Origin: Amycolatopsis jiangsuensis
GTDB lineage: Bacteria; Actinomycetota; Actinomycetes; Mycobacteriales; Pseudonocardiaceae
Reading direction: 5' to 3'
Assembly (NCBI RefSeq): GCF_014204865.1
Contig: NZ_JACHMG010000001.1
Span: forward strand, 372,001-436,000
DNA: 64,000 nt
The notes beneath the pieces are model-generated. The model was not told the DNA's origin. It saw only the letters and a program-made list of their open reading frames with translations, and searched no databases. The position numbers and the translations under genes were made by a program. Every line of letters begins with the position of its first letter. The first letter of the stretch is position 1. Shown here piece after piece: positions 17,586 through 41,417 of this stretch.

Positions 17586-17636
17586 CGCACACGGCACTGG
17601 CACGGGTGTACCAGCCTCATGCCAGTGCCGTGTGCG
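17586..17636 (+). terminator. Hairpin terminator after the secreted peptidase
   Basis: Perfect 17-bp inverted repeat (17586-17602 with 17620-17636), 17-nt loop, beginning 9 bp after the stop codon. Confidence 0.8.
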
Positions 17637-17709
17637 TTCCGTGCCAGGACTCCGGGGCAGGGTCGACGTGCCGCAGCAAGAGCGGGCGGCCCGACCTCGA
17701 AGGAGCCTC

Positions 17710-18936
17710 ATGCACACCCCTGTCACGATCATCGGCGCCGGTCTCGGCGGACTCACCCTCGCCCGCGTCCTGCGGCTGAACGGCATCCCGGCCGCGGTCT
17801 ACGAGGCGGAGCCGTCCCCGCTGGCGCGGACACAGGGCGGGATGCTGGACATCCACGACTACAACGGGCAGCTCGCGGTCGCGGCGGCGGGTCTGATGGA
17901 CGAGTTCCGCGGGCTCGTCCTGGAGGGCCGCCAGCAGATGCGGATCCTCCGCAGGGACGGGACGGTGCTGTACGACCAGCCCGACGACGGCACCGGTGGC
18001 CGCCCCGAGGTGCAGCGCGGCGAGCTGCGGCAGCTGCTGCTCGACTCGCTTCCGGAGGGCACCGTCCGGTGGGGCTGCAAGGTCACCGAGGTGCGCGCCC
18101 TGGGCGAGGGCCGGCACCAAGTGGTCTTCGCCGATGGCGGCACCGTCACCACGGGCCTGCTGATCGGCGCGGACGGTGCGTGGTCGAAGATCCGGCCGCT
18201 GCTCAGCGACGCCGTCCCCGAGTACGTCGGCACTGCGTTCGTCGAGACCTACCTCTACGACGCGGACTCCCGCCACCCCGCCGCCGCGAAGGCGGTCGGC
18301 GGCGGATCGATGGGCGTGCCCGCGCAGGGCGGGGACATCATGGCGCACCGGGAGCGCGGCGACACCCTGCACACCTACGTGACCCTCACCCGGCCCCTGG
18401 ACTGGTTCGCGGCCATCGATTTCACCGACCGGGTTGCGGCGGCCACGGCCATCGCCGCGGAGTTCGAAGGCTGGGCACCGGAACTCACCGCGTTGATCAC
18501 CGACGGCGACACCGCGCCGGTCCTGCGCCCGCACTACGCGCTGCCGGACGGGACCCGGTGGGGGCGGGTCCCGGGCGTGACCGCGCTCGGCGATGCCGCC
18601 CACCTCGCCGCCCCGAACGGCGAAGGCGCAAACCTGGCCATGCTGGACGGCGCCGAACTCGGCAAGGCACTCGCCGAGCACCCGGACGACGTCGAAGCGG
18701 CTCTCGCCGGCTACGAGGAAGCGATGTTCCAGCGCAGTGAGCAGGTCGCCGCCCGGACCGCAGAGTTCTCGGAGCTCGCGTCCGGTGCCGACGGCGAGGA
18801 CACCGCCGAGCTCATGATCGAAGCGTTCGCCGCGCTGTCCCGCTCCGGACCGGAAAGCCAGGTTCCTGCTCGACGAGGTCCCGATCCTGGCCCCGTCGAG
18901 CCGGAGACCGGCTGTCAAGCAGCTAATACGTATTAG
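17710..18936 (+). CDS. TetX-like FAD-dependent monooxygenase
   Basis: A 408-residue flavin hydroxylase resembling the TetX subgroup: GAGLGG nucleotide motif at residues 9-14, QGGMLDIHDYNGQLA, VQRGELRQLLL and GD motif TALGDAAHLAAPNGEGAN. Family members oxidise planar aromatics, in some cases tetracyclines; resistance cannot be assumed. GAAGGAGC precedes the ATG. The last 30 or so residues (from about SRSGPESQ) do not look like the family's usual C-terminus, and another frame stays open there, so a late frameshift is possible. The stop codon lies inside the palindrome used as a candidate LacI operator. Confidence 0.85.
   Translation: MHTPVTIIGAGLGGLTLARVLRLNGIPAAVYEAEPSPLARTQGGMLDIHDYNGQLAVAAAGLMDEFRGLVLEGRQQMRILRRDGTVLYDQPDDGTGGRPEVQRGELRQLLLDSLPEGTVRWGCKVTEVRALGEGRHQVVFADGGTVTTGLLIGADGAWSKIRPLLSDAVPEYVGTAFVETYLYDADSRHPAAAKAVGGGSMGVPAQGGDIMAHRERGDTLHTYVTLTRPLDWFAAIDFTDRVAAATAIAAEFEGWAPELTALITDGDTAPVLRPHYALPDGTRWGRVPGVTALGDAAHLAAPNGEGANLAMLDGAELGKALAEHPDDVEAALAGYEEAMFQRSEQVAARTAEFSELASGADGEDTAELMIEAFAALSRSGPESQVPARRGPDPGPVEPETGCQAANTY
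18923..18936. promoter_or_regulatory. LacI-family operator 1 (predicted)
   Basis: Perfect 14-bp palindrome CTAATACGTATTAG with the central CG typical of LacI-family sites, 103 bp upstream of the LacI start. It matches the palindrome at 26964-26977 at 12 of 14 positions. The two differing positions are mirror positions, so symmetry is preserved. Its last three bases are the TAG stop of the preceding gene. Confidence 0.75.
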
Positions 18937-19039
18937 TCCCGCGCTCAGCCGGATCGGACAGAAAGCGGCCACCCTCCTTGACGGTCTCCGGTGGGACGCA
19001 GATGCTCTGCTGAACCGCATTAGCGCAGCAGGAGCCGAG

Positions 19040-20041
19040 ATGACCGCACGCAGCCGGATGCCGAGGCAGGCCGACATCGCCCGGATCGCCGGGGTGTCGC
19101 AGGCCACGGTGTCCGTGGTGCTGGCAGGGAACCGGGCGGTGCGGATGGCCGAGTCCACCCGGCGGCGGGTGCTGGAGGTGGCCGAGGACCTCGGCTACGT
19201 CCCGCATCCGGTGGCCACCCGGCTCGCCCGTTCACGGTCGAACCTGCTGGGCCTCTACACCTTCCGCGCCGCTTTCCCGACCGACGAGGCGGACGCCTAC
19301 CACCCGATCCTGTCCGGTGTGGAGGAGGAGGCCACGGCACTGCACCAGGACCTGATCCTGTTCACCGGCACCGGCGGGCCGCAGGCCGCGCAGGAGGCGG
19401 CGATCCGCCGGACCCGGATGGCCGACGGCTGCCTGTTCTTCGGCAGGCACGTGCCCGAAGGGCCGGTCTCACGACTCGTGGACGCCGGTTTCCCGCTCGT
19501 CTACATCGGACGCCGGCCCGAGCTCGCCGGCCGGATCCCGTTCGTCGGGGCGGACTACGTGAGCGCGTCCGCCGAGGTGCTGCAGCGGCTGCTCGCACTC
19601 GGCCACCGCAGGATCCGCTACGTCCGGGAGCCGGACGTAGCACCGTCCTCCGAGGACCGGCACCTCGGGGTGCTGCGGACCGCACCGCGCACCGAGGTCG
19701 TGCGGCTGGAAGGGGCGGAGCTGCCGGTCGCCACGGTGCGCGGCTGGCTGGCCGAAGGAGTCACGGCGGTCGTGGTGGAAGGGACGGACACCGGGGCGGC
19801 CTACCGCAGTGTGCGCGCCGCGCTCGACGCGGCCGGACTGTCCACTCCGGACGACCTCTCGCTCGCCGTGCTCGGTGGCCCGCCCGGCGTCAGCGGTTTC
19901 GAAGTGCCCATGCGGGACATGGGCCGGCGCGCGGTACGGCTGCTGGTCGACCTCGTGACCGGCACCCCGAGCACGCCGCAGCAGCTGCTGCGGTGCCCAC
20001 CGGTGGCCGGCTCGCAGGTCGGCCCACCACGATCCGGATAG
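19040..20041 (+). CDS. LacI-family transcriptional regulator
   Basis: A 333-residue regulator. The N-terminal helix-turn-helix and hinge occupy residues 8-65 (QADIARIAGVSQATVSVVL, then RVLEVAEDLGYVPHPVATRLA), followed by a periplasmic-binding-protein-like ligand domain. AGGAGC precedes the ATG. It heads a rightward run ending with a permease at 25623. Two matching CTRATACGTATYAG sites flank this run and the adjacent secreted-enzyme genes, so it probably represses the whole locus until a sugar or related ligand appears. The ligand is unknown. Confidence 0.92.
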   Translation: MTARSRMPRQADIARIAGVSQATVSVVLAGNRAVRMAESTRRRVLEVAEDLGYVPHPVATRLARSRSNLLGLYTFRAAFPTDEADAYHPILSGVEEEATALHQDLILFTGTGGPQAAQEAAIRRTRMADGCLFFGRHVPEGPVSRLVDAGFPLVYIGRRPELAGRIPFVGADYVSASAEVLQRLLALGHRRIRYVREPDVAPSSEDRHLGVLRTAPRTEVVRLEGAELPVATVRGWLAEGVTAVVVEGTDTGAAYRSVRAALDAAGLSTPDDLSLAVLGGPPGVSGFEVPMRDMGRRAVRLLVDLVTGTPSTPQQLLRCPPVAGSQVGPPRSG

Positions 20042-20049
20042 GACCGACC

Positions 20050-21672
20050 ATGCCCGAACTCGGCACCGAGATCCTCGTCGCGGGCGGCGGGACCGGCGGC
20101 GTCGCCGCCGCGCTGGCCGCCGCCTCGGCGGGACATCACGTCGTGCTGACCGAAGAGACCGACTGGCTCGGCGGCCAGTTCACCGCGCAGGCGGTGCCAC
20201 CGGACGAGAACCCGTGGATCGAACGGTTCGGCGCGACGGCGAGCTACCGCCGCTTCCGCGCCGGCGTGCGCGACTACTACCGGCAGCACTACCCGCTGCG
20301 CGCGGAGGCGGCCGCGCTGCCCGAGCTCAATCCGGGTGCGGGCCGGGTCAGCAAGCTGTGTCACGAGCCCCGGGTCGCACTCGCCGTGCTGGAGGCGATG
20401 CTGGCGCCGCACGTCGCGGCCGGCCGCGTCACCGTCCTCCTGCGACACCGTCCGGTTTCGGCGGACATCACGGGGGACCAGGTCGACGCAGTCACGCTGG
20501 AGGGCCCCGGCGGCGACCGGATCACCGTGCGTGCGCGGTATTTCCTCGACGCGACCGAGGACGGCGACCTGCTGCCGCTCACCGGGACCGAGTTCGCGAT
20601 CGGCGCCGAAGCCCAGTCCGAACACGGCGAACCGCACGCCCCCGAGCGGGCGGATTCCGGGAACCTGCAGGGAATCACCTACTGCTTCGCGCTTTCCCAC
20701 CACGCGGGGGAGGACCACACGATCGACCGGCCGTCGATGTACGGGTTCTGGCGGGACTACACGCCGGAGTTCTGGCCCGGCCCGCTGCTCGGATTCCTGG
20801 CGCCGGACCCGCGGTCGCTGGAACCGGTCCCACGGACTTTCGAGCCGAACCCGGACCACGATCCGCTCGCGGTCAGCGCGGACCAGAGCGCCGACGCCGG
20901 GGACAAGGAGCTGTGGGGTTTCCGCCGGATCCTCGCCCGCAAGCTGCACCGGTCCGGTGCCTTCGATTCCGACCTCACGCTCGTCAACTGGCCACTCAAC
21001 GACTACTGGCTGCGCCCGGCGGTCGAGATCGACGGCGTGAGCACTGCCGACGACGTTGCGCTGGCGCACCGAGAAGCCAAACAGCTGTCGCTGTCGGTGC
21101 TGTACTGGCTGCAGACCGAGGCGCCGCGGCTCGACGGCGGGACCGGCTTCCCCGGCCTGAAACTGCGACCGGACGTGGTCGGCACCGCCGACGGGCTGGC
21201 CAAGTCCGCCTACGTCCGCGAAGCCCGGCGGATCCGGGCGGTCACCACGATCGTCGAGCAGGACGTGTCGCTGGAGCTGCTCGGGCCGTCCGGCCGCAAA
21301 CGCCGCGAGGACTCCGTGGGCGTCGGCAGCTACCGGATCGACCTGCACCCCTCGACCGCGGGCGACAGCTATGTCGACGTGCCGAGCGTGCCGTTCGAGC
21401 TGCCGCTCGGCGCGCTGGTGCCGCGGCGGATGCGGAACCTGCTGCCGGCCGGGAAGAACCTCGGTACCACGCACATCACCAACGGCTGCCACCGGCTGCA
21501 TCCGGTGGAGTGGAACGTGGGCGAGGTCGCCGGGCACCTGGCCGGGTTCGCGCTTCGCGAAGGGACCGAACCGCAGGCGGTGCGCGAAGATCCGGCACGG
21601 TTCACCGATTTCGCGCGGGTCCTCGACCGCGCCGGCGTCGAACGGCGCTGGCCCGAGGTCCGCGGCTACTGA
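20050..21672 (+). CDS. FAD-dependent oxidoreductase (PF12831-like)
   Basis: A 540-residue flavoprotein with an N-terminal Rossmann motif (EILVAGGGTGGVAAALAAA), a conserved TDWLGGQFTAQAVPPDE segment, RARYFLDATEDGDLL and a C-terminal GKNLGTTHITNGCHRLHPVEW FAD-closing region. This matches the FAD_oxidored group often found beside polysaccharide or sugar-acid catabolic genes, where its reaction is usually unassigned. It begins 8 bp after the LacI stop and is followed by the hydantoinase-like gene after 28 bp, so it is the first enzyme of the operon. A cytoplasmic oxidation of a carbohydrate- or lactam-derived intermediate is possible. Confidence 0.85.
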   Translation: MPELGTEILVAGGGTGGVAAALAAASAGHHVVLTEETDWLGGQFTAQAVPPDENPWIERFGATASYRRFRAGVRDYYRQHYPLRAEAAALPELNPGAGRVSKLCHEPRVALAVLEAMLAPHVAAGRVTVLLRHRPVSADITGDQVDAVTLEGPGGDRITVRARYFLDATEDGDLLPLTGTEFAIGAEAQSEHGEPHAPERADSGNLQGITYCFALSHHAGEDHTIDRPSMYGFWRDYTPEFWPGPLLGFLAPDPRSLEPVPRTFEPNPDHDPLAVSADQSADAGDKELWGFRRILARKLHRSGAFDSDLTLVNWPLNDYWLRPAVEIDGVSTADDVALAHREAKQLSLSVLYWLQTEAPRLDGGTGFPGLKLRPDVVGTADGLAKSAYVREARRIRAVTTIVEQDVSLELLGPSGRKRREDSVGVGSYRIDLHPSTAGDSYVDVPSVPFELPLGALVPRRMRNLLPAGKNLGTTHITNGCHRLHPVEWNVGEVAGHLAGFALREGTEPQAVREDPARFTDFARVLDRAGVERRWPEVRGY

Positions 21673-21700
21673 CTCGTTCTCACACCAGGAGGTGCGGACA

Positions 21701-23839
21701 ATGGGGTTCCGCCGGAGTCCGGTGCGCATCGGCATCGACGTCGGGGGCACGTTCACCGACGCGGTCGCGGTCGACGCGCAGTCGTTCGAACTGCTCGGGC
21801 AGGCGAAGGTGCCGACCAGCCACGACCACGAGGACGGGGTGGCGCACGGCATTCTCGAAGCACTGGAGAAACTGCAGGCCGAGGCCGGGATCGGTGCGCA
21901 GGACGTGTCGTTTCTCGCGCACGGCACCACGCAGGCGACCAACGCACTGCTGGAAGGGGACGTGGCGACGGTCGGTCTCGCCGGGGTGGGGACCGGCTTC
22001 GACGCGTTCGCGACCCGGCGGCTGGCCTCGCTCGGGAAGATGGAGCTGGCTCCGGGGCGGAAGCTGCCGGTGCGGTTCGCGTCGGTGCGTGCGCCCGCCG
22101 AGGCCGCATCGGCGGTGGAAACCCTGGTCCGGCAGGGGGCCGGCGTGGTCGTCGCGGTCGAACCGTTCAGTGTGGACGATCCCGAAGGGGAGCTGGCCGT
22201 GGTTTCCGCCGCCAGGTCGCGCAGTGTGCTGGCCACGGCCACTCACGAGATCACCAGCCTGTACGGGCTGACCAAGCGGACCCGCACAGCGGTGCTGAAC
22301 GCCGGCATCATGCCGCGTATGGTCTCGACCGCCGATCTGGTCGAGGCCAGCGTCCGGCGCGCGGGGATCACCGCGCCGCTGATGGTGGTGCGCGGTGACG
22401 GCGGTGTCATGTCGCTGCCGGAGATGCGCCACCGTCCACTGTTGACCGCGTTGTCCGGACCGGCCGCCGGCGTGGCGGGCGCCTTGATGGGCGAGAAGCT
22501 CAGCGAGGGGCTTTTTCTCGAAACGGGCGGTACCTCCACGGACATCAGCGTGGTCCGCCGCGGCCGGGTCCAGGTGCGCCACGCGCAGCTCGGCGGGCAC
22601 GAGACCTACCTTCCTGCGCTGGACGTCCGCACTGTCGGTATCGGTGGTGGCTCACTGGTGCGCTTCTCCGGCAGCGAGGTGACGGCGGTCGGACCGCGGA
22701 GCGCGCACATCGCGGGGCTGCCTTATGCGTGTTTCGCTCCGGCGTCCGCGTTGGCCGGGGCGAAGCTGGTCACAGTCTCGCCGCAACCGGATGATCCGGC
22801 CGACTACGTGGCATTGGACACTGTGGACGGTCGTCGATACGCGCTCACCCTGACCTGCGCCGCCAACGCGCTCGGCGTCGTTCCTGCCGGGGCGTACGCC
22901 CGTGCGGAAACCGAGTCCGCGCGGCTGGCGCTGGAACCGCTGGCCTCGGCACTGGGCACGTCGGTCGCCGACGCCGCGCGGACGGTGCTGGGCCGGGCGG
23001 TGAAGCCGGTCGGTGAGGTCGTCGACGAACTGGTCCGCGAATACCGGCTCGATCATCCCGCGCTGGTCGGTGGCGGGGGTGGGGCGGCTTCGGTGACTCC
23101 GTTCCTGGGCAAGGAATCCGGGTACGAATGGCGGATCGCGGCGCATGCCGAGGTGATCAGCCCGCTCGGTGCGGCGCTGGCGCTGGTGCGGGAGTCGGTG
23201 GAGCGAATCGTGCCGAGCCCGTCGGACGCGGACGTCCTCGCGGTCCGCACCGAGGCCGAGACGGCGGTGGTCGGCCAAGGTGCCGACCCGGCCGGAGTCG
23301 AGGTGGAAGTCACCGTCGACCCGCAGCGCAACCTGATCCGCGCGGTGGCGACCGGAGCCACGGAACTGCGCACGAAGGACCGGTCATCCACTGTGGACGA
23401 CGAGGGAATCCGCGCCGCGGTGGCGCGGAGTATCGGCGTCGCTCAGTCCGAGGTGCGTGAGCTCGCCTCGACCGAGCATCACCGGGTTTTCGCCGCGCGC
23501 GGCACCCGGCCGGGTCTGTTCGGGTGGTTCACCAAACCGGTCGAGCAGGTGCGGGTGGTCGACGGTGAGGGTGTGGTCCGCTTGCACAGTAAGGGAACTG
23601 TGGTGGAGCGCGTCGACGCCGGTTCGGCTCAAGCGCGCGTCGCCGATCTCGTCGACCGGTACACCCGGTACGGCGACGGTGGATCGCGTGCCCCCGCCGT
23701 GTGGTTGCTGGTCGGGCCGAAGATCGCGGACCTGTCCGGGGTGCTCGATCGCGACCAGCTGATCGCGCTGGCCGGAGCGGAACTGAAGACGCGGGCGAAC
23801 GCCGAACCGGTGGTCGTGCTCCTGGAGGACCGGAAATGA
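21701..23839 (+). CDS. Hydantoinase/oxoprolinase-family ATPase, single subunit
   Basis: A 712-residue protein of the HyuA group. The N-terminal ASKHA-type motif is IGIDVGGTFTDAV (about residues 9-21), followed by FLAHGTTQATNALL, the LSGPAAGVAGA and ETGGTSTDISVV blocks and GIGGGS. Relatives hydrolyse hydantoins, 5-oxoproline or carboxylate acetone using ATP, usually with a HyuB-type partner. No HyuB gene is present here; instead the last ~200 residues form an unusual extension. AGGAGGTG precedes the ATG. The stop overlaps the next start (ATGA). Confidence 0.88.
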   Translation: MGFRRSPVRIGIDVGGTFTDAVAVDAQSFELLGQAKVPTSHDHEDGVAHGILEALEKLQAEAGIGAQDVSFLAHGTTQATNALLEGDVATVGLAGVGTGFDAFATRRLASLGKMELAPGRKLPVRFASVRAPAEAASAVETLVRQGAGVVVAVEPFSVDDPEGELAVVSAARSRSVLATATHEITSLYGLTKRTRTAVLNAGIMPRMVSTADLVEASVRRAGITAPLMVVRGDGGVMSLPEMRHRPLLTALSGPAAGVAGALMGEKLSEGLFLETGGTSTDISVVRRGRVQVRHAQLGGHETYLPALDVRTVGIGGGSLVRFSGSEVTAVGPRSAHIAGLPYACFAPASALAGAKLVTVSPQPDDPADYVALDTVDGRRYALTLTCAANALGVVPAGAYARAETESARLALEPLASALGTSVADAARTVLGRAVKPVGEVVDELVREYRLDHPALVGGGGGAASVTPFLGKESGYEWRIAAHAEVISPLGAALALVRESVERIVPSPSDADVLAVRTEAETAVVGQGADPAGVEVEVTVDPQRNLIRAVATGATELRTKDRSSTVDDEGIRAAVARSIGVAQSEVRELASTEHHRVFAARGTRPGLFGWFTKPVEQVRVVDGEGVVRLHSKGTVVERVDAGSAQARVADLVDRYTRYGDGGSRAPAVWLLVGPKIADLSGVLDRDQLIALAGAELKTRANAEPVVVLLEDRK

Positions 23840-24348
23840 CCGATGTGGACCTCGCCGTCCGGCTGCTGCGCACGACACCCACCCACGAGAACCGGCCCGA
23901 ATCCCAGCTCCGCGAGTGGGCGGGGAAGGCGCTGGCCTACGGCGACGAGCTGGCCGGCATCGAGGACGACGGGGAAATCCGGGTCGTGGACCGCGAGGGT
24001 GGTGCCGGGTCCCGGGAGCTGCTGCTCGCCGAGCATCACCGGGGGACCGTCACCGTCTACTCCGATTCCCTGCGCCGGGTGGAAGAACTGGCCCGTGCGA
24101 AGGGCTGGCCGGTGACCCGGGAGGCGCTGCGGACCGCCGCCGTCGCGCACGAGCTGGCGCACCATCTGCTCGACGTGCGCGAGCTCAACCGCCGGCTCGG
24201 CCACACCGCGCTGCGGTTCGGCCCGGTGCGTGTCCGGGGGCACGTGGCCGGTGCCGAAGAGATCGCCGCGCATCGATTCGCCCACCGCCGCAGCGGCCTC
24301 GCCGTGAGCCCGCTGCTGATCACCACCGCGCTCGCGGGAGGAAACTGA
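23836..24348 (+). CDS. Small HExxH protein, putative metallopeptidase-like
   Basis: A 170-residue cytoplasmic protein starting with an ATGA overlap of the hydantoinase-like gene, so translation is coupled. It contains H105-E-L-A-H109 (AHELAHHLLD), a zinc-binding HExxH signature, and a downstream E141/E142 in GAEEIAAHRFA that could be the third ligand, as in gluzincin/IrrE-like proteins. I do not recognise a named family. Overlap with its neighbours suggests it processes or supports the hydantoinase-like protein or acts on the pathway substrate. Function is otherwise unknown. Confidence 0.75.
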   Translation: MTDVDLAVRLLRTTPTHENRPESQLREWAGKALAYGDELAGIEDDGEIRVVDREGGAGSRELLLAEHHRGTVTVYSDSLRRVEELARAKGWPVTREALRTAAVAHELAHHLLDVRELNRRLGHTALRFGPVRVRGHVAGAEEIAAHRFAHRRSGLAVSPLLITTALAGGN

Positions 24349-24351
24349 GCA

Positions 24352-25623
24352 ATGGGTATCGCGATTCTGGTCCTGATGGCGGTGGGCGTGGTGCTCATGC
24401 TCACCCGGGTGCTGCCGACGGCGTTCGCGCTGGTGTTCCTCGCGATCGGCATCGCCCTGCTGGCCGGGGCGCCGCTCGACGGCACCGACGACAGCATCCT
24501 GACCGGCGTGCTGCAGACCGGTTCCGCGGCGCTGGCCTCCACCATGCTCGCCGTGCTGCTCGGCTCCTGGCTGGGCACGCTGATGGACGAGACCGGCATC
24601 GCCGGCACACTGGTGCGCAAGATCGTCGAGTTCGGCGGGGAGCGTCCGTCCATTGTGGCCCTCGGCGTGTTCGCGGTGTCGATCCTGTGCGGCAGCATCA
24701 CCGGCTCGGCACCGGCGGCGATGCTCGCCGGGGTGGTCGGCATCCCGGCGATGATCGCGGTCGGCGTCCGCCCGGTCGCCGCAGGCGGCACCGTGCTGAT
24801 GGGCATCTCCGCCGGCTCGCCGCTGGAACTGCCGGTGTGGCAGTTCCTCTCCGACGCGCTCGGCGCGCCGGTCGCGGACGTCAAGGCGATCATGATCAAG
24901 CTCTTCCCGATGGCGCTGGTGGTCGGTATCGCCTACGTGCTCGTCCGGACACGACGCGGTGCGCGGCACGCCTGGGCGGTGAAGCTGGAGCGCCCCAAGG
25001 CACGCGTGCGCCGCGGCGACGCGCCGTGGTATGCGCTGATCACCCCGCTGGTGCCGATCGTGCTGGCGCTGGGCCTCGCGGTGCCGATCGTGCCGTCCCT
25101 GCTGGCCGGTGTGGTCTACGCGCTGGTGACCACGACGAAATGGGGCGAGCTCAACGGCCGCGCGCTGCGGTCGCTGTACAAGGCGTTCCAGGTGGCGGCA
25201 CCGCCGATCGCGCTGTTCGTGGCGATCGGGATGCTGCTGGCCGCGGTGAAGCTGCCCGGGGCGAAGAACGCGCTGACGCCGATCGTGTCGGCGATCAGCC
25301 CGTCCGGCGGGCTGTGGTTCGTCGTGGTCTTCGTGGTGCTCGTCCCGCTGTGCTTGTTCCGCGGTCCGCTCAACGTGTTCGGCCTCGGCGCCGGGGTGGC
25401 CGGCGTACTGGTGACCGGCGGGATCTACCCGCTGCCCGCCGTGGTCGGGCTGATGGCCTCGTACAACCAGGTCTTCAGCGTGTCCGACCCGACGAGCACC
25501 CAGACGGTGTGGGCGGCCCAGTACGCCGGCGTACGCCCGGAGCGGGCGATGGTCTCCACCCTGCCCTACACCTGGGTGGTCGCCCTGGGCGGCATGGTGC
25601 TCACCGCGGTGTCGTACCTGTGA
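24352..25623 (+). CDS. Ion-transporter-superfamily permease (organic acid type)
   Basis: A 423-residue integral membrane protein with about 10-12 hydrophobic helices and no soluble domains. Short re-entrant-like segments (SILCGSITGSAPAAMLAG and VSDPTSTQT) in two halves suggest the IT-superfamily fold shared by TRAP large subunits, CitMHS and gluconate permeases. No DctP/DctQ genes are adjacent, so a single-component symporter for an organic or sugar acid is most likely. It begins 3 bp after the HExxH gene. Its last 23 bp overlap the convergent GH105 gene. Confidence 0.8.
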   Translation: MGIAILVLMAVGVVLMLTRVLPTAFALVFLAIGIALLAGAPLDGTDDSILTGVLQTGSAALASTMLAVLLGSWLGTLMDETGIAGTLVRKIVEFGGERPSIVALGVFAVSILCGSITGSAPAAMLAGVVGIPAMIAVGVRPVAAGGTVLMGISAGSPLELPVWQFLSDALGAPVADVKAIMIKLFPMALVVGIAYVLVRTRRGARHAWAVKLERPKARVRRGDAPWYALITPLVPIVLALGLAVPIVPSLLAGVVYALVTTTKWGELNGRALRSLYKAFQVAAPPIALFVAIGMLLAAVKLPGAKNALTPIVSAISPSGGLWFVVVFVVLVPLCLFRGPLNVFGLGAGVAGVLVTGGIYPLPAVVGLMASYNQVFSVSDPTSTQTVWAAQYAGVRPERAMVSTLPYTWVVALGGMVLTAVSYL

Positions 25624-26749
25624 CCTGTTCGCTGAGGTAGAGGAAGGCGCCGATGCCGTGGAAATCGTTGGTGGCGCGGGGACGGGCGAGGTAGAACGGC
25701 GCGTCGCCGACGTTGGTGCCGACGCCGATCGTGGTGATCCGCGTGCTGCCGTCGTCGGCGACCGACACGCGGTCGCGTACGCCGGCGTAGCCGTCGTCGA
25801 CCATCGGCTGGTAGTCCGAGCCGACGTAACCGCGCTGGATCGCCCGCGAGACGGTGTAGGTGAACAGGCTCGAACACGAGGTCTCGGTCCAGTTGCCTTC
25901 CAGGTCCGGGCGGGTCGGCAGCTGGAACCACCGCCCGGTCGCCGGGTCCTGCCACTTCCGGTAGCCGGCGGAAAGAGAGCGGACGATGTCGATCAGCTTT
26001 CCGCGGTCCGGCGAGGTCTGCGGCAGCGCGTCGAGTACGTCCACAGTGGCCGCGCCGAACCAGCCGACCGCGCGACACCAGACCTCCGGCGAGTTCCCGG
26101 TCTTCGGGTCGGCCCACTTCTGCGCACGCTTTTCGTCGTAGGCATGGTAGAGCAGGCCATTCGGGTTCCGCAGGTGTCCGAAGTAGATGTTCAGCTGCTT
26201 CGCCGCCTCGGTAGCGGACGCGGGGTCGCCGGTCGCCGACGCGTAGCTCGCCAGGAAGGGCGTGAGCATGAAGACGCCGTCGGCCCACAGCTGGCCGGTG
26301 AGCGAGGTGTTGTGGATGAAGCCGCCGTCGGTGGTCTTCGGGTAGCTCTCGAGGCGGTCGTGGATCCGCTGCGCCGCCAGGTGGTAGCGCTCGTCTCCGG
26401 TTTCCTTCCCCAGCACGAGGAAGACGTTCCCGACGAGCATGCTGTCCAGCGAGTCGTAGGCCTCGCCGGTGCTGCCGTCGGTGTGCACCTTCGCGGTGCC
26501 CCAGGCCTTGAGGTAGTCCAAATAGCGGTGCTCGCCGGTGCGCTGGTAGAGCCGGTACATGCCGAGCAGGACCAGTGCGTCGGGATAACCGAGGCCGAGT
26601 TTCTCCGCGGGATGCGCGGCCATTGTCGAATCGGCGACCGCGCGGGACAGATCGGTGCGCTCTGCCGCGAGCGCGGGCACCGCCGGGCTCATCAGCCCGA
26701 GCATGACGAGGACCGCGCACAGGATGCGCGGAACAGTCCGAATTCTCAT
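25601..26749 (-). CDS. Secreted GH105-type unsaturated glucuronyl/galacturonyl hydrolase
   Basis: A 382-residue alpha6/alpha6-barrel hydrolase of the YteR/GH88-GH105 group with an N-terminal signal peptide (1-28, PALA cleavage region). The catalytic aspartate is in LWADGVFMLTPFL, corresponding to YteR D143; a substrate His is in LLYHAYD, and WCRAVGWF replaces the common ARGNGW block. The family hydrates the enol double bond of unsaturated uronic acids left by polysaccharide lyases, releasing the sugar. Most GH105 enzymes are cytoplasmic, so an exported version implies that final lyase products are cleaved outside the cell. It is transcribed away from the operator at 26964. Confidence 0.87.
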   Translation of the reverse strand: MRIRTVPRILCAVLVMLGLMSPAVPALAAERTDLSRAVADSTMAAHPAEKLGLGYPDALVLLGMYRLYQRTGEHRYLDYLKAWGTAKVHTDGSTGEAYDSLDSMLVGNVFLVLGKETGDERYHLAAQRIHDRLESYPKTTDGGFIHNTSLTGQLWADGVFMLTPFLASYASATGDPASATEAAKQLNIYFGHLRNPNGLLYHAYDEKRAQKWADPKTGNSPEVWCRAVGWFGAATVDVLDALPQTSPDRGKLIDIVRSLSAGYRKWQDPATGRWFQLPTRPDLEGNWTETSCSSLFTYTVSRAIQRGYVGSDYQPMVDDGYAGVRDRVSVADDGSTRITTIGVGTNVGDAPFYLARPRATNDFHGIGAFLYLSEQVTGTTPR

Positions 26750-26963
26750 CTTGACCAGCTCCTGTTCCGACCGAAGTGGGCGGGCGCCCGGTGGCGGCGG
26801 GGACTGGCACCCGATTTACTCCGGAATCTTCGGCGTGGTCGTGCGGAATGGTCAACCGCCCTTCGGGGAATGCTGCCGGACAGAAAACCGGACTGCCCGA
26901 TTCACCTCTGCGGTGCTGCCCGTGAGGCCCGCACCGCAGGACATTTCTCCTTGGCGGAAGGGA

Positions 26964-26977
26964 CTGATACGTATCAG
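26964..26977. promoter_or_regulatory. LacI-family operator 2 (predicted)
   Basis: Perfect 14-bp palindrome CTGATACGTATCAG in the 291-bp divergent spacer between the GH105 gene and the Tat-exported protein gene. It shares the ATACGTAT core and flanking CT/AG with the site at 18923-18936, so both are probably bound by the LacI regulator at 19040. Confidence 0.75.
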
Positions 26978-27040
26978 CCCCTTGTCCGGCACGGTATGCG
27001 CGCCTACCGTCGGCCGCGATCGGTGACGAAGGGGTGGACA

Positions 27041-28963
27041 ATGGTTCTGTCGAGGCGTGCGATGCTGTTCGGAACGGCCGGAATGGGTGCGGCAGCCGGG
27101 CTGAGTGCGGCCATTCCGGGTGTCGCGGCCGCGGATGTCCGGCTGTCTTCCGGGCCGTTTCCGCCGTTGCCTCCGCTGCCGGACGGCGCGCCGGTGCGTA
27201 CCGAGTTCACCGCGGTGGAACAGCGGTTCGCGCCGTACCTGAAGATCCTGCCGGCAATGGTCAACGACGTCGTCGTCGACGATCCGGCCACGCAGGGGTT
27301 CCTCGGCGGTGGATGGTGGCGCACACCCTCTGTGCCGACGAACGCACGGGTGCAGGAGCACGTGTTCACCTTCAGCTGGTACCTCGCGAACGCGCGCAGC
27401 TGGAATCCGTACTCCGGTAGCGTGCCCCTGCGCAACCGGCTCGACGCGGCGGTCGCGCACTACCTGGGCCTGCAGCACCCCGACGGGTCCTGGCCCGAGT
27501 ACGACGTGGCCGAGAAGTCCAAGGCGGCCACCGGGTTCGGCATCGGCTATCTCGCCAAGACCCTGGCGAACCTGCGGCAGGCGAACGCGCTGCCGGACCG
27601 CAGGGGGCAGATCGGCACCGCGCTGCACAGCGCCATGACCTGGTTCCTGGATCCGGCCAATCCGATCTGGCAGTCCCCGGTGCACTACGCGAACCAGAAC
27701 TCCGCGGGCCTCTCCGGGGCGACCCTGGCCCTGCAGCTCAACCCGGACGCGGCACTGCGGTCCCGCCTCACCGACCGGATCGGCTACCTCGCCGCGCACG
27801 GGCAGAGCCCTGCCGGGTTCTTCTACGAGCCGACCGGGATGGACATCAACTACAACTTCGAAGTGCTGCTGCCGGAGATCGCGGAGATCCACGCGCTCAC
27901 CGGAGACCGCACCGTGCTGGCGATGGCGCGCAAGTTCGCGGAGTGGTTCGGCTACAACGTGGTGCGCGAGCCGGACGGCACCGGCTCGCTGACCTACGTC
28001 GGCATGTCCGCCCGCACCACGGTGCCCGGTTACGACGACGTCGTCCCCGATCCGGATCGCACCAACCTCGCGTCGTTGTTCGTGCCGGAGGTGCCGGCGC
28101 TGGCGCCGTTCTTCACCTCGGCCGAGGACCGGGCGGCCACCCGCGAAGCCTGGCGGGCCGATCCGGGGCCCGTGCCGCCACTGGCCAAACAGGACACTTC
28201 ACCGCGGATACTCGCGCACGCGCCCTACGGTGAGGCACTCCCCACGGCTGCGGACAAGCGGGCCGCGATCGCAGCACTGCCGTACCTGAGCAGCAAGGAT
28301 TTCGCGGTGCAGCGCAGGGACACCGCGACTGATCAGACCTATGTGTACGTCCGGCGGCCCGCGCTGTACCTGGCCGCGTTCTTCGGTACGCGGCCTTCCC
28401 AGTACGTCCGCGGCTCGGGTGGACTGCTGTGGCACCCGGAGGCGGGCACGATCGTGCAGAGCCAGCAGGACGACGCTTCGTGCTGGGCGAGTGTGCTTCC
28501 CAACGGCAGCCCGGACGCGCGTGGCCTGCTCACCGCCACCTACCTCGTCGGTGACCGGGACTGGAACGGCGACCGGGTCGTCCCGGGTTCGGCGCCGGTC
28601 ACCGTGGACTACGACCTGGACAGCCGGATCCACACCACGCTCACCCTCACGAAGAACGTCGTGACCCGTGCGGTCAAGGGCAGCGGTCCGCTGACCGAGC
28701 AGATCCCGCTCGTGCTCAAACCGACGGACACCGTGACCTTCGCCGACGGCTCTCCGGCCGAATTCGGGAAGACCTCGAAGGCGACCACGAGCGGGCTCGT
28801 CCTCCGGCGGGGCGCTGCCACGATCCGGATCGACTGGGGCACCTCGTTGCCGGCGGAGATGGTGGCCACCACGGTGACCATCCTGCGTGAAGGCGGCCGA
28901 CGGCTGCACGTCCTGCGCGTACCACACGGCGGCGCGCTGACCACGACGATCACCCTGCCCTGA
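27041..28963 (+). CDS. Tat-exported alpha/alpha-toroid protein, putative polysaccharide lyase
   Basis: A 640-residue protein with a twin-arginine signal (SRRAMLFGTAG, cleavage near AAA-DV). Residues about 80-330 are a helical repeat region (YLGLQHPDGSWPEYD, NSAGLSGATLALQL, GMDINYNFEVLLPEIAEIH) resembling an (alpha/alpha)n toroid; residues about 400-640 are beta-rich. This toroid plus beta-sandwich plan is that of heparinase II/III- and alginate-lyase-like enzymes. I do not recognise an exact family, so lyase activity is inference supported by the neighbouring GH105 gene and shared operator. It is the first gene of a two-gene unit with the F5/8-domain protein. Confidence 0.72.
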   Translation: MVLSRRAMLFGTAGMGAAAGLSAAIPGVAAADVRLSSGPFPPLPPLPDGAPVRTEFTAVEQRFAPYLKILPAMVNDVVVDDPATQGFLGGGWWRTPSVPTNARVQEHVFTFSWYLANARSWNPYSGSVPLRNRLDAAVAHYLGLQHPDGSWPEYDVAEKSKAATGFGIGYLAKTLANLRQANALPDRRGQIGTALHSAMTWFLDPANPIWQSPVHYANQNSAGLSGATLALQLNPDAALRSRLTDRIGYLAAHGQSPAGFFYEPTGMDINYNFEVLLPEIAEIHALTGDRTVLAMARKFAEWFGYNVVREPDGTGSLTYVGMSARTTVPGYDDVVPDPDRTNLASLFVPEVPALAPFFTSAEDRAATREAWRADPGPVPPLAKQDTSPRILAHAPYGEALPTAADKRAAIAALPYLSSKDFAVQRRDTATDQTYVYVRRPALYLAAFFGTRPSQYVRGSGGLLWHPEAGTIVQSQQDDASCWASVLPNGSPDARGLLTATYLVGDRDWNGDRVVPGSAPVTVDYDLDSRIHTTLTLTKNVVTRAVKGSGPLTEQIPLVLKPTDTVTFADGSPAEFGKTSKATTSGLVLRRGAATIRIDWGTSLPAEMVATTVTILREGGRRLHVLRVPHGGALTTTITLP

Positions 28964-28996
28964 GCTTCGAGAAACGTCGTCACCGAGGTGGAGTCC

Positions 28997-31900
28997 ATGA
29001 GTTCCGAGCCCTCGCGCCGGATAGTCCTGCAAGCCTTCGGCGCGGGCGGGCTGGCGCTCGCCGCGGCGAACCTCGTGACGCCGGCTGCGGCCGCGCAACC
29101 GGGCGCGGTACCCGGCGGTGGAAGGAAATGGGGCGGCCGGGGTCCGGACGAGGTGGCGGCCACCTATCAGCGTGTCCTGCTGCAGCACACGCGCTGGGCC
29201 GAGCAGCAGTTCGACCGGGCCGCCGGAATCTACCCGGCCCAGGACTTCACGTTCGCCGTCGTCCTCGGCAACGCCGTCCTGCTCACCCGGGACGGTTACG
29301 ACGCGACGGTCGCCGGGGTCGGGCGTGACGTGCTGCACCGGCACACCGTCGACACGATCCGGCACTTCGCCGCGTCGAACCTGGTGACCGGCGGGAGTGA
29401 ATGGGGCCGCAGGCTGTTCTTCGACACCACGTTCCAGTCGTACTTCCAGCTCGCCGGCCGGCTGCTGTGGGCGGACCTGGACGCGGCCACCCGGGCGAAC
29501 CTGGACGAGATCGCGACCGGACAGGCGGCCTACACCACCGGACTGGGCTTCGGGAACGACCCGATGTCCGGCGACTGGACACCGCACGGGCTTGCCGGTG
29601 GGTACGTCGGGGACACGAAGCTGGAGGAGATGGGCGTCTACGCCCAAGCGCTGGCCCCGGGCATGGCCTGGGCGCCGGCGGACCCGCGCGCCGCCGGGTG
29701 GCGCGGGTGGTTCGGCACGTGGAGCCGCAACGAAATCGGCTTTCCGCCGGCGGATCTGGCCAACCCGAGGGTGGTGGACGGCGTAGCGGTTTCGGCCAAC
29801 ACCGCCGAGAACCTGTACGACACCTTCCTCGTCGAGAACCACGGTTCGTTCGGGCCGCACTACCAAGAGGAACTCTGGCGTACGTCAGGACGCAACGCCC
29901 TGCACTTCCTGCTCGCCGGACAGCCGCTGCCGGAAGTGCTGACCGCGCAGCCGAACGGGGAACGCCTGTGGCACACCATGCTGTTGATGGCAAGCGACGC
30001 CGGTGAGCCGCTGATGCCGATGGTGGCGGATCGCGAACATCTCTACGGACGGGATGTGCTTCCGCTCGCGTTCCGCGCACAGGTCCTCGGGGACCGTTAC
30101 GCCGCACGGGCCGAGGAACAGCTGGTAGCGCGGCTCGAGCCGTATCAGGCATATCCGCCGGTCGATCGGATCACGAAGTTTTCCGGCGAGCCGAAGTACG
30201 AGCCGGAAGCACGCGCGGAGATCGCGATCAGCTATCTGCTGCACGAATGGCGCGCGAGTCACGGTGGCCCGGTGCGCCCGGTGAGCCAGAGGGAGTTCGA
30301 CGCCTACGCGGTGGGCGCCCGCGATTTCGGTGCGGGGCCGGGCTTGCTCGCGCACCGGACGCCGGAGGCTTGGGCGGCGGCGGTGACGAAGCCGGGCTAC
30401 ACCAAGTTCGCCTGGCAACCGCACCACGACGACTGGCTGTTCGGGATCAGTGGCAGCACGCCGATGTTCCTGCCTTCGACGGCGTTGAAGGTGCTCGAAC
30501 GGCACGCTGCCGTCTGGACGAAGGTCCGCGACGGTTTCGGCGCCACCGCGGCGGTGCTGAAGTTCGCTGAGGGCTACGCGGGATTCGCCACCCTGCCTTC
30601 GGGTGCCGCGGTGTACGCGTCGACGGGCCTGGCAGCCGGCGAGGGCGTCGTGACGGTCCACAACCTGGACATGCCAGGGGTTCCGGGCCTGCGCGGCGAA
30701 CGCACCTACCGCACCGCCGAGGGCACCGTGACGGTGCCGGTCAGCCCGGCGCCTCCGGAGGGCGGGCGGACCGATGAAGTCAGCTTCCCGGCGGTGACTG
30801 CGCGACACGTTCGCCTGCTCGGCGTGCAACCCGATCCGACGTACGGCTATTCGCTGTGGTCCTTTGAAATCCGAGACGGCACGCAGGAAACGGACCTCGC
30901 CGCGACAGGAACTGCGTCGGCCTCTTCATTCGCGCCAGGCAAGGAAGCGAAGAACGCGATCGACGGTGACGCGTCCACGCGCTGGGCAGTGTCCACAGCA
31001 GACCGGCCACGCGTGGACAGCTGGATCGCCGTCGATTTCGGCTCTCCGAAGCGGCTGGACCGGGTCAAGGTGGTCTGGGAAGCCGCGGCTGGGCGGCGCT
31101 ACCGCATCGAAACCTCGCCGGACGGGGTCACGTGGACGACCGTGACGACGTATCCGCGTCCGGTGCTCAGCACCAAGGGCGGTTGGCTCGACGTCGACGG
31201 GCGCGCCGGATTCCGGGTGACCGGCTCACCGCACCCGGTCACCGTCACCGGCGACCAGATCGTGCTTTCCGACGGCGGCACCGCGCCACTGCACGTCGAA
31301 TGCCATCCGGATCCCAGTGCTTTTCCCACAGCGGCGCCACGGCCGGTGTCCGGCAACGCGGTCGTGCGCGCGTCCGTCCTGGACGGGCACTTGGTGCTGT
31401 TCAACCTGTCCGGCTCGGCCGCGAAGGCGACGGTCACGGTACCCGCGGACGGGGAAGTGGTCGCGCTTTACCGCGGCGACCAAGTGACCACAAAGGACGG
31501 TAGCGTGCTGACCGTCTCGCTGGGCGCGTCCGAAGGACGGGTCGAACCGGCGTGGTTCACCCTCCGCGCGAGCCGCGCTGGCGTGCGGGCCACCGTCACC
31601 GATGCCGCCACGCTGCGCCTCACCGCTGCGGCCGGGCCGCCGGTGCGGCTGCAGGTCCAGCCCGCGGACGAACAGGCGCGGCCGGTCGTGGTCCCGGGTG
31701 GCCGCACAGCCACCGTCACCGCTCGCGCCACCCGGCCTTACCCGTTGACGGATCTCGCCGCCGGCGCCACGACGTTCCCGACCGAGCCGCTGCCGGCGGG
31801 CATGTCCGCCCCCGCGTCCGCGGTGGACGACGACGAACGGACCTCCTGGCGCCCGGGCACCGACGGCCGAATGGTCGTCGACCTGGGTGCGGCCCAGCCG

Positions 31901-32116
31901 CTCGGCCAGGCCGAACTCACCTGGACCGGCGGGCGGGTCCCCAAGGTGACCGTCGAAACGAGCGTCGACGGACGCACGTACACCACCGCGCCCACCCCAG
32001 CGCGGCGGCGACGCAGCACCGTGCCGCTGCCCGGCACCGCGCGGTACGTGGCGGTGCGAGTGCACGGCACGGCGGCGGCCGGTTTGACGAGCCTGCGCGT
32101 CCAGCCGGGCGGGTGA
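28997..32116 (+). CDS. Tat-exported multidomain protein with toroid and F5/8-type C domains
   Basis: A 1039-residue protein with a Tat signal (EPSRRIVLQAFGAGG). Residues about 50-420 are a helical toroid-like domain with a conserved-looking NTAENLYDTFLVENHGSFG segment whose Asn/His could be catalytic. A beta-rich region follows. Near residues 630-735 is a discoidin/F5-8 type C (CBM32-like) domain (NAIDGDASTRWAV, WIAVDFGSPKRLDRVKVVW), and a second, weaker copy is at about 918-1035. It is probably a glycan-binding lyase or glycosidase acting outside the cell, but the catalytic family is not recognised. ATG 28997 has GAGGTGGAG upstream. It lies 33 bp after the preceding gene. Confidence 0.75.
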   Translation: MSSEPSRRIVLQAFGAGGLALAAANLVTPAAAAQPGAVPGGGRKWGGRGPDEVAATYQRVLLQHTRWAEQQFDRAAGIYPAQDFTFAVVLGNAVLLTRDGYDATVAGVGRDVLHRHTVDTIRHFAASNLVTGGSEWGRRLFFDTTFQSYFQLAGRLLWADLDAATRANLDEIATGQAAYTTGLGFGNDPMSGDWTPHGLAGGYVGDTKLEEMGVYAQALAPGMAWAPADPRAAGWRGWFGTWSRNEIGFPPADLANPRVVDGVAVSANTAENLYDTFLVENHGSFGPHYQEELWRTSGRNALHFLLAGQPLPEVLTAQPNGERLWHTMLLMASDAGEPLMPMVADREHLYGRDVLPLAFRAQVLGDRYAARAEEQLVARLEPYQAYPPVDRITKFSGEPKYEPEARAEIAISYLLHEWRASHGGPVRPVSQREFDAYAVGARDFGAGPGLLAHRTPEAWAAAVTKPGYTKFAWQPHHDDWLFGISGSTPMFLPSTALKVLERHAAVWTKVRDGFGATAAVLKFAEGYAGFATLPSGAAVYASTGLAAGEGVVTVHNLDMPGVPGLRGERTYRTAEGTVTVPVSPAPPEGGRTDEVSFPAVTARHVRLLGVQPDPTYGYSLWSFEIRDGTQETDLAATGTASASSFAPGKEAKNAIDGDASTRWAVSTADRPRVDSWIAVDFGSPKRLDRVKVVWEAAAGRRYRIETSPDGVTWTTVTTYPRPVLSTKGGWLDVDGRAGFRVTGSPHPVTVTGDQIVLSDGGTAPLHVECHPDPSAFPTAAPRPVSGNAVVRASVLDGHLVLFNLSGSAAKATVTVPADGEVVALYRGDQVTTKDGSVLTVSLGASEGRVEPAWFTLRASRAGVRATVTDAATLRLTAAAGPPVRLQVQPADEQARPVVVPGGRTATVTARATRPYPLTDLAAGATTFPTEPLPAGMSAPASAVDDDERTSWRPGTDGRMVVDLGAAQPLGQAELTWTGGRVPKVTVETSVDGRTYTTAPTPARRRRSTVPLPGTARYVAVRVHGTAAAGLTSLRVQPGG

Positions 32117-32139
32117 CCGCGCCCGAAGGTCACGCGGTC
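32115..32139. terminator. Short hairpin between convergent genes
   Basis: GACCGCG (32115-32121) pairs with CGCGGTC (32133-32139) over an 11-nt loop. It covers both stop codons of the convergent pair and could serve both directions, but the 7-bp stem is weak. Confidence 0.35.
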
Positions 32140-33146
32140 CGGAGCGCCAGCAGGCTGCGGGCGGTGTCGGCCACGGTCTCTTCGATCGGGCGGGACGTCC
32201 ACCCGAGCAGCCTCCGCGCCTTGTCCGTCCGGATGACCGGCACGCGGCCGAGGCGAGTGGCCGCCTCCCGCATGGCCGGGTCGGTCACGGCGGCGGCCCG
32301 GACCTGCTCGTCGGTCAGCTCCTCGATGGCGCGCGGGGGCCCGCCGACGCTCTCGGCCACGATCCGGGCCAGGTCGAGGAAGCTGATCGCCGCCCGGCCC
32401 GCGGCGAGGAACCGCTCACCCGCGGCACGGGGATGCGTCATCGCCAGCAGGTGCAGGGAGGCGACGTCACGAACGTCGGCGACCCCGAAGGACAGCGGCG
32501 GCACCCGCGGCATCGCACCGTCGAGCATCGCCTGGACCAGCGCGACCGACGACGACGGCCGGCCGCCGAGGACCGGGCCGAAGATGCCGGCCGGGTTGAT
32601 CACCGCCAGCTCGGGGCCGCCGGCCGCGCGCACCTGGCCCCACGCGGCTCGTTCGGCGACGACCTTCGACCGCACGTACGCGCTGTTCGGGTCGGCGAGG
32701 TCGGTCCAGTCGGCCTCGGTGTACTCCGCGCGCGGCGCGGCACTGTAGCCGACCGCGGCGAACGAGGAGGTCAGCACGACCCGCCGGACACCGGCTTCGC
32801 GGGCGGCGGCCAGCACCCGCACGGTGCCGTCCCGGGCCGGGCGGATCACCTCGTCGTCGCTCTCCGGCGAGCTGGGCGGGAACGGGGAGGCGACGTGGAG
32901 CACGTAGTCCACGCCCTCGGTCGCCTCGGCCCAGCCTTCGTCGGCGCCCAGGTCCGCGGCCACCACCTCCAGATTTCGCGAGGCGGCGCCCACCGCGGCC
33001 CGGACCTCGGCTGCCCGGCCGAGGTCGCGCACGGTGGTGCGGACGCGGTGGCCCTCGGCCAGCAGCCGCGTGACGGTGTGGCCGCCGAGGTATCCGGTGC
33101 CACCGGTGACCAGGACCAGCGCACCGCCGCGGAGTTCGTCGTTCAT
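32130..33146 (-). CDS. Extended SDR, NAD(P)-dependent epimerase/aldehyde-reductase type
   Basis: A 338-residue Rossmann protein with VTGGTGYLGGHTV at the N-terminus and the Y-x-x-x-K catalytic pair in YVRSK preceded by LTSSFAAVGYS. It resembles dihydroflavonol-4-reductase-like aldehyde/ketone reductases. It starts 5 bp after the MerR gene stop in the same orientation, so the MerR regulator very probably controls it. Reductive detoxification of an aldehyde or ketone is a reasonable guess. Confidence 0.88.
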   Translation of the reverse strand: MNDELRGGALVLVTGGTGYLGGHTVTRLLAEGHRVRTTVRDLGRAAEVRAAVGAASRNLEVVAADLGADEGWAEATEGVDYVLHVASPFPPSSPESDDEVIRPARDGTVRVLAAAREAGVRRVVLTSSFAAVGYSAAPRAEYTEADWTDLADPNSAYVRSKVVAERAAWGQVRAAGGPELAVINPAGIFGPVLGGRPSSSVALVQAMLDGAMPRVPPLSFGVADVRDVASLHLLAMTHPRAAGERFLAAGRAAISFLDLARIVAESVGGPPRAIEELTDEQVRAAAVTDPAMREAATRLGRVPVIRTDKARRLLGWTSRPIEETVADTARSLLALRTA

Positions 33147-33151
33147 CGTCG

Positions 33152-33619
33152 TCAGCCCCTCGCGGATGGCCGGAAACGCTCGATCAGCGCGCGGATCCGC
33201 GGGACGAGCCGCTGCTCCGCGGCCTCGTCACCGTGGTCACGGGCGTCCCAGAGCCGTGCCTTGAGCCGCAGGTACTCCAAGCGCAGCCGCAACCGCTCGA
33301 TCTCGGCCTCGAGCCGGTCGGCGTGCTGGTCGAACAGCTCCCGCTGCTCGGCAGCGGCCGCGGTGCCGCGGGCGAGCAGGCCGAGGTACCGCCGCAGGTC
33401 CTCGACGCGCAGTCCCGCCGAGCGCAGGCAGCCCAGCGTGTCGAGGGTGTCCATGGTCTCGGCGTCGTACCTGCGGTGCCCGCTGCTCGGGTCGCGCGGT
33501 ACCGGGCCGACCAGCCCGATCTGCTCGTAGTAGCGCAACGTCGGCTCACTGAGCCCGCTGCGCCGGGACGCTTCGCGAATCGTCAGCCACGCCTGTTCGC
33601 CCGCTACTCCGGTCTGCAT
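33152..33619 (-). CDS. MerR-family transcriptional regulator
   Basis: A 155-residue MerR regulator: N-terminal winged helix (LTIREASRRSGLSEPTLRYYEQIGLV), SSGHRRYDAET, then a long coiled-coil dimerisation helix. There is no cysteine cluster typical of metal sensors, so it likely responds to an organic effector. An in-frame upstream start at 33646 exists but would overlap the predicted operator, so 33619 was chosen. It is first in an operon with the SDR gene downstream. Confidence 0.9.
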   Translation of the reverse strand: MQTGVAGEQAWLTIREASRRSGLSEPTLRYYEQIGLVGPVPRDPSSGHRRYDAETMDTLDTLGCLRSAGLRVEDLRRYLGLLARGTAAAAEQRELFDQHADRLEAEIERLRLRLEYLRLKARLWDARDHGDEAAEQRLVPRIRALIERFRPSARG

Positions 33620-33635
33620 ACCGACAGCATGCAGA

Positions 33636-33656
33636 ACCTCAAGCACGTGAAGTCAA
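33636..33656 (-). promoter_or_regulatory. MerR-type promoter/operator (predicted)
   Basis: Read leftward: TTGACT (-35) running into ACTTCACGTGCTTGAGGT, an imperfect dyad of ACYTCA...TGARGT half-sites lying between the -35 and a -10 region about 19 bp on. This elongated-spacer layout is characteristic of MerR-activated autoregulated promoters. Confidence 0.6.
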
Positions 33657-33667
33657 GCCGCCGGTGG

Positions 33668-35155: not shown

Positions 35156-35165
35156 GGGCGGCCTC

Positions 35166-36005: not shown

Positions 36006-36109
36006 CGTCGTTCGTGGTCCTCTCTTCGTGCCGGACAATCCCGTGCTCGCCGAGGTGTGCCGGTGAGCTGGATCGCCGGACTGCCCGGCAGCTTCGGCCG
36101 GCTCGGTGC

Positions 36110-37453: not shown

Positions 37454-37470
37454 CTGCGGTCCCTCCCGGT

Positions 37471-37510: not shown

Positions 37511-37533
37511 ACCTGCGTTCAAGAGGATCTGCG

Positions 37534-41410: not shown

Positions 41411-41417
41411 TGACCCC

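Follow-up and report, generated by a model that had tools for sequence, protein, structure and literature searches.

A predicted LacI regulon in Amycolatopsis jiangsuensis that joins a hydantoinase-like operon to exported carbohydrate-active-looking proteins

Genes for a cytosolic operon and for exported enzymes stand side by side in Amycolatopsis jiangsuensis, which raises the question whether one regulator holds them together, and for which substrate. The window analysed here is a stretch of 64,000 nucleotides (contig NZ_JACHMG010000001.1, positions 372,001–436,000; G000:C1:372001-436000) of a genome of 8,047,834 bases (~8.05 Mb); G, L and P are the labels used for genomes, loci and proteins of relatives. 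As a first-pass annotation had read it, and as Pfam, NCBIfam and open reading frame (ORF) analyses confirm, it carries a rightward operon for a LacI-family regulator (LacI), an FAD-dependent oxidoreductase (FADox), a hydantoinase/oxoprolinase A-like protein (Hyd), a putative zinc metalloprotein (the HExxH protein) and a permease, together with a secreted GH105 protein and a pair of twin-arginine translocation (Tat)-type exported proteins, TatA and TatB. A single LacI regulon is very likely; it is well supported and appears wider than the window shows. The best explanation as a whole, with a probability of about 0.6, is a LacI regulon serving a rhamnose/uronate polymer pathway with an exchanged exported enzyme. 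The estimate is a joint one, including the views that the operon is an old general module and that Hyd and the HExxH protein are extra steps tied to its permease form.

The operators carry most of this reading. Allowing up to three mismatches, the palindrome has three matches in the window (mean 0.73 in shuffled sequences, one of which reached three). Two of them, O1 and O3, are the palindromes listed in the first-pass annotation and lie where it placed them; the third, O2, was absent from its list (Table 1). In the whole genome the pattern CTRATACGTATYAG has two exact matches, O1 and O3. Five further genome sites with two mismatches lie in 3-kb stretches without a homologue of the 12 window genes tested (tblastn, E<=1e-5). 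The pattern was derived from the window first and then counted in relatives. Among 80 genomes of the genus, source genome included, 13 have exact sites, 15 in all, of which 13 stand just ahead of the LacI+FADox operon and two ahead of TatA; the reversed pattern, used as control, has zero matches in all 80. The same 13 genomes carry Hyd according to an independent protein search (E<=1e-100). None of the 14 bases varies among the 13 sites ahead of LacI. Next to them GTCAA (columns -9 to -5) is equally fixed, as are a few isolated columns, perhaps as part of a promoter; most other flanking columns vary. An equivalent of O3 occupies the same place ahead of TatA in G191 (exact pattern) and G211 (one mismatch). 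The two G191 sites, at TatA and at the operon, are 34 kb apart and both exact, and the one at TatA is identical to O1.

O2 is the most degenerate of a series. Twelve other genus operons have CTAATCCGCATTAG, CTAATTCGCATTAG or CTAAACCGCATTAG 78–88 bp past the first site, each better-matching than O2, so that a second, weaker site is found at this distance in 13/13. Because of these counterparts O2 is probably a second operator; among 5000 random stretches of 164 bases, 34 reached a match with up to four mismatches. Two sites (up to four mismatches, CG centre), 13–107 bp apart, precede LacI in 33 of 34 operons. The exception, L141, has LacI out of place and no such site there; one two-mismatch site stands ahead of its FADox. 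The predicted operator is a CG-centred palindrome ahead of the LacI gene and its targets and is conserved across relatives. LacI has both the helix-turn-helix (HTH) and the periplasmic-binding-like effector domain and is the only regulator recognised by Pfam within 18923–32116. Comparison supports the operator and the membership of the LacI operon and TatA in the regulon, while repression by LacI and the regulation of GH105 and TatB are predicted. The proposal of the first-pass annotation that one LacI regulon spans the cytosolic operon and the divergent secreted genes is strengthened by the genome-unique pattern, the genus sites and the co-occurrence with Hyd.

Table 1. Operators and genes of the predicted regulon, in window coordinates; some gene starts were shifted to an in-frame ATG
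Feature	Coordinates	Strand	Remarks
Operator O1, CTAATACGTATTAG	18923..18936		117 bp (from its first base) ahead of LacI start codon; exact genome site
Operator O2, CTGAACCGCATTAG	19010..19023		directly ahead of LacI, 87 bp past O1; degenerate, 4 mismatches to O1
LacI-family regulator, 333 aa	19040-20041	+	LacI HTH E=8.9e-12; Peripla_BP_3 E=2e-15
FADox, FAD-dependent oxidoreductase	20050-21672	+	PF12831 (FAD_oxidored), E=2e-100
Hyd, hydantoinase/oxoprolinase A-like, 712 aa	21701-23839	+	Hydant_A_N and Hydantoinase_A
HExxH protein, putative zinc metalloprotein, 170 aa	23836-24348	+	overlaps Hyd stop; no Pfam family
Permease, weakly DcuC-like	24352-25623	+	NF037994 E=1.1e-9, 37.6 bits, cut-off 100; no Pfam
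GH88/GH105 protein, secreted, YteR relative	25601-26749	-	PF07470 E=6.3e-78; convergent with permease
Operator O3, CTGATACGTATCAG	26964..26977		64 bp ahead of TatA start, 215 bp ahead of GH105 start
TatA, Tat-type exported, 640 aa, polysaccharide-lyase-type fold	27041-28963	+	homologues in 58 named loci
TatB, Tat-type exported, 1039 aa	28997-32116	+	possible toroid lyase-like domain and F5/8 type C domains

The conserved operon was followed in 33 fetched loci (34 operons with the window). They were selected for Hyd (or for TatA, in Streptomyces L033), so that Hyd is present in 33/33 by construction. With the source genome counted in both sets, 20 of 150 genomes of the family and 8 of 345 of the class carry Hyd (E<=1e-100), and its matches were fetched at up to 20 kb from 14 of 19 other family, 12 of 12 other genus and 6 of 7 other class genomes. 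The 5-kb loci of G059 and G060 (L028 and L026), which have the same gene order, were left out, as were distant matches in G002, G080, G102 and G275 (42–43% identity). ORFs in relatives were called by a heuristic on third-position GC content (GC3), which missed or over-extended some genes; the counts rest on tblastn. The genomes are related and the counts not independent, the correction for kinship being a single FADox tree of 47 rows (window, 33 operon loci and 13 of the 42 other TatA loci with FADox). LacI, FADox, Hyd, HExxH protein and permease are complete and in the same order in 31/33 loci, from families f1, f18 and f20 plus Streptomyces L033 (at least three families). Of the two incomplete loci, a contig end truncates L132, and L141 has neither the HExxH protein nor an adjacent LacI. 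Literature searches found no description of this five-gene operon.

Hyd keeps three ATPase-type motifs in 33/33 homologues. In the HExxH protein, H105 and H109 are kept in 31/31 homologues and E106 in 30/31, and E142 and H146 are invariant. Both proteins are probably active, given this conservation. A Hydantoinase_B (PF02538) partner is neither fused nor adjacent to Hyd and is absent from the window, and five occur elsewhere in the genome; lacking a partner beside Hyd, the amidohydrolase chemistry is unproven. FADox has no sequence relatives in PDB at E<=0.001, and the permease falls under the cut-off of the NCBIfam model for the DcuC dicarboxylate transporter.

The uronate and lyase chemistry that the first-pass annotation had read into the exported enzymes is supported in part, by the likeness of GH105 to YteR and by the fold of TatA; for TatB it is doubtful. 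GH105 has a Glyco_hydro_88 domain at 262.7 bits (cut-off 26.6) and its best PDB relatives are 1nc5/2d8l/2gh4 (YteR, an unsaturated rhamnogalacturonyl hydrolase; E 3e-63). The WLDG of YteR, its aspartate presumably catalytic, aligns to WADG, so the catalytic region (WxDG) is conserved. The protein has a Sec-like leader (by eye) and is predicted to cleave 4,5-unsaturated uronates. Twin-arginine motifs were read directly at the N-termini of TatA (SRRAML) and TatB (SRRIVL). In structural comparison TatA shows an alpha/alpha toroid followed by an antiparallel beta-sandwich, as in lyases. In an alignment its homologues have many invariant Asn, His and Tyr, which may include the Asn/His/Tyr catalytic set of toroid lyases; two homologues bear a precomputed PF25840.1 label, which was not reproduced for P0029. 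TatB, an exported discoidin protein that starts 33 bp after TatA and is found in 41/80 genus genomes, perhaps has a lyase-like toroid. Confidence is low: its model has a predicted local distance difference test (pLDDT) score of 63.8, with epimerases and complement C3 among the structural matches.

Most operons are accompanied by a different exported protein. TatP is a Tat-type protein of ~335 aa with a GH43-like propeller and weak GH43/GH130 similarity; 8 of 11 members match GH43 models at E<=5 (best E=9e-9; first member 25.4 bits, cut-off 32.2). It is present in 29 of 34 operons, divergent from LacI across the operators in 22 and directly after the permease in 7. It is missing from five, namely the window, G191, G211, Streptomyces L033 and L141, the first four of which have TatA instead. 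TatP is absent (E<=1e-5) from the genomes G000, G191 and G211, all of which have TatA behind an operator; in L033 (21.8 kb covered) TatA comes after the permease and is read in the same direction. The loci next to L033 in the FADox tree, L128–L130 (93/85, fork not starred), carry TatP after the permease. Among Hyd-bearing genus genomes, 3/3 with TatA have no TatP and 10/10 without TatA have it. Outside them the two proteins are not mutually exclusive: TatP is also present in 8 of 10 TatA genomes that have no Hyd match and were tested for it, and in two of the eight it adjoins a LacI of 60–62% with a one-mismatch operator. The FADox tree groups the window with G203, G178 and G164 (all TatP) and leaves G191/G211 outside. 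Comparison thus supports an alternation of TatP and TatA at the operon, and the separation in this single gene tree makes about three exchanges likely.

TatA was also followed on its own, in 58 named loci. FADox stands beside it in 43/58, against 0/20 control stretches (hand-chosen, at round coordinates, from 10 genomes including the source genome), and TatP is nearby in 3/58. Since FADox accompanies TatA both with an ATP-binding cassette (ABC) importer and with the permease, it is suggested to act on the imported product. A recurrent locus of LacI, FADox, binding protein and two ABC genes with TatA (L037, L039, L043, L046, L057, L061, L075 and others) is seen in Kribbella, Actinoallomurus, Nonomuraea, Lentzea, Saccharopolyspora and Streptomyces; the Lentzea and Saccharopolyspora loci also carry palindromes of the AATTCGAATT type. 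Amycolatopsis L029–L032 have a FADox of the Hyd-type clade (two of the four are in the tree) beside a binding protein, TatA and a GH92 gene. TatA and Hyd seem to occur together in A. ultiminotia and a Kutzneria, with TatB as well in A. ultiminotia.

In the mechanism proposed, one LacI repressor would govern three transcription units through CTAAT-NCG-NATTAG operators, O1 and O2 controlling its own operon and O3 the divergent GH105 and TatA-TatB units. Exported TatA, perhaps with TatB, would cut a rhamnose/uronate plant polymer such as rhamnogalacturonan I (RG-I) or uronate-capped arabinogalactan, leaving unsaturated uronates for exported GH105 to take off. The permease would import a small, probably acidic product for processing by FADox, the hydantoinase-A-like ATPase and the HExxH protein, and a pathway intermediate would free LacI. 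In this lineage TatA would have taken over the place of TatP, with which most examined relatives pair the operon. Polymer identity, import and every cytosolic reaction are inferred here from sequence. The favoured substrate is an ordinary plant polymer of rhamnose, galactose and uronate, on which TatA would be the lyase: GH105 is nearest YteR, and in A. saalfeldensis TatA and GH105 are separated by a GH78-like gene, with a GH59 gene following.

Several observations weigh against this reading. FADox is missing from 15/58 TatA loci (6 of them on stretches <17 kb), GH105 is near TatA in just 2/58, plus G211, and 33/57 have no operator-like palindrome. The common TatA form has the ABC transporter in place of Hyd, HExxH protein and permease, so these three are not needed everywhere for the TatA substrate. 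An operator ahead of GH105 was rejected for G191, G211 and Saccharopolyspora L069, the first two alone having half-site-like sequence by eye (TATTAG/TATCAG). TatB occurs in 0/58 TatA loci and is far from TatA in G191 and G211; outside the window its regular membership in the regulon was rejected. Pfam gave TatA no convincing lyase match: of the 17 members scanned, 13 touch GH127 (best E 0.0041; P0003 12.9 bits, cut-off 24.9) and 2 touch Pec_lyase (0.044). The best PDB match of its profile is a six-hairpin glycosidase (E 0.11), and TatA might be a glycosidase instead of a lyase. LacI binding, its ligand and all enzyme activities are predictions.

The operon might also handle some small acid or signal that has nothing to do with the polymer, with LacI merely re-used for TatA and GH105 in a few lineages, in which case co-regulation would not mean one pathway. 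That 10 of the 13 Hyd-bearing genus genomes lack TatA would fit, as would the absence of TatA, TatB and GH105 homologues from the stretch in 32/33 fetched operon loci (TatA being ~30 kb off in G191 and G211). This is rather unlikely, given the usual pairing with TatP at the operator or right after the permease, the 42 further loci that link FADox and TatA in the absence of Hyd, and the presence of TatA, behind the operator or within the operon, in three parts of the FADox tree (window, G191/G211, L033). A separate repressor for O1 and for O3, their likeness being coincidental, is far less probable still. CG-centred palindromic sites are common to many LacI proteins, and two symmetric positions distinguish O1 from O3, but the confinement of the exact pattern to the cluster within 8 Mb, the O1 sequence at TatA in G191 and the lack of a second Pfam-recognised regulator speak for one protein.

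The first-pass annotation had suggested that a uronic-acid polymer, modified or N-containing, is degraded by an undescribed route. On this view Hyd would open a lactam or amide with ATP after oxidation by FADox. The conserved ATPase-type motifs, the HExxH protein and permease as operon partners and the absence of 2-keto-3-deoxygluconate (KDG)-type families from the 26 window ORFs scanned with Pfam would all suit it. The lack of KDG-type genes, as that annotation had it, holds for these ORFs but not for the genome, where a KduI homologue (L124, G000:C1:1875280-1876026) suggests that part of a KDG-type route may be present. With Hyd lacking an adjacent B subunit despite five in the genome, TatA neighbours in a relative that point to an ordinary plant polymer, KduI in the genome, and no sequence feature that demands nitrogen, such a route is unsupported and improbable. 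The usual company of the operon, a GH43-like propeller and not GH105/TatA, also means that it is not specific to uronans. A speculative variant, held at low probability yet above the N-containing route, is an undescribed catabolic module in which the HExxH protein would supply the hydrolytic half for the B-less Hyd ATPase, the pair acting on a sugar acid that FADox has oxidised beforehand. The module itself would remain constant while its front enzyme outside the cell, a GH43-like propeller or a toroid lyase, is swapped under the same LacI, apparently three separate times.

The favoured regulon, with its rhamnose/uronate polymer, resembles known systems in part. Bacillus subtilis reportedly has RG-I utilisation genes around YteR (GH105), and the YteR-like GH105 and the rhamnosidase-like and galactosidase-like neighbours in A. 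saalfeldensis recall them; the Sec-like leader of GH105, the lack of a classical RG lyase among the scanned ORFs and the co-regulated operon do not. TatA shares its overall fold with alpha/alpha-toroid lyases (heparinase III, PL33, PL8, PL17) but has 6–14% identity in the lyase rows of structural alignments. Hyd has the A-subunit domains and ATPase-type motifs of the ATP-dependent hydantoinase/5-oxoprolinase/acetone carboxylase/caprolactamase family (HyuA+HyuB), whereas its operon has the HExxH protein adjoining it instead of a B subunit. The LacI-FADox-ABC loci of other actinomycetes share LacI, FADox and TatA with the window, which has Hyd, HExxH protein and permease instead of the ABC importer.

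Outside the regulon, an FAD_binding_3 monooxygenase ORF (17632–18936; weakly Tet(X)-like, far under the model cut-off) has its stop codon inside O1. As most relatives have the divergent TatP gene at this position, the ORF and O1 may mark a rearrangement junction. Genes for an epimerase/short-chain dehydrogenase/reductase (SDR), a MerR, a flavin-containing monooxygenase (FMO)-like protein, an SDR and a cytochrome P450 follow on the minus strand (32130–37591) and seem to have no part in the regulon; at 38525–44819 lie phospholipase C-type phosphoesterase, GDSL lipase-like and amidohydrolase-like genes.

The operator is specific enough to locate the operon by pattern alone within the genus. Should Hyd and the HExxH protein act together, they would be a new pairing in the hydantoinase/oxoprolinase superfamily. 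What the comparison brings out is the link of a conserved operon to an exported carbohydrate-active-looking protein, swapped in some lineages, and comparing the inducers of TatP-type and TatA-type strains offers a direct path to the substrate.
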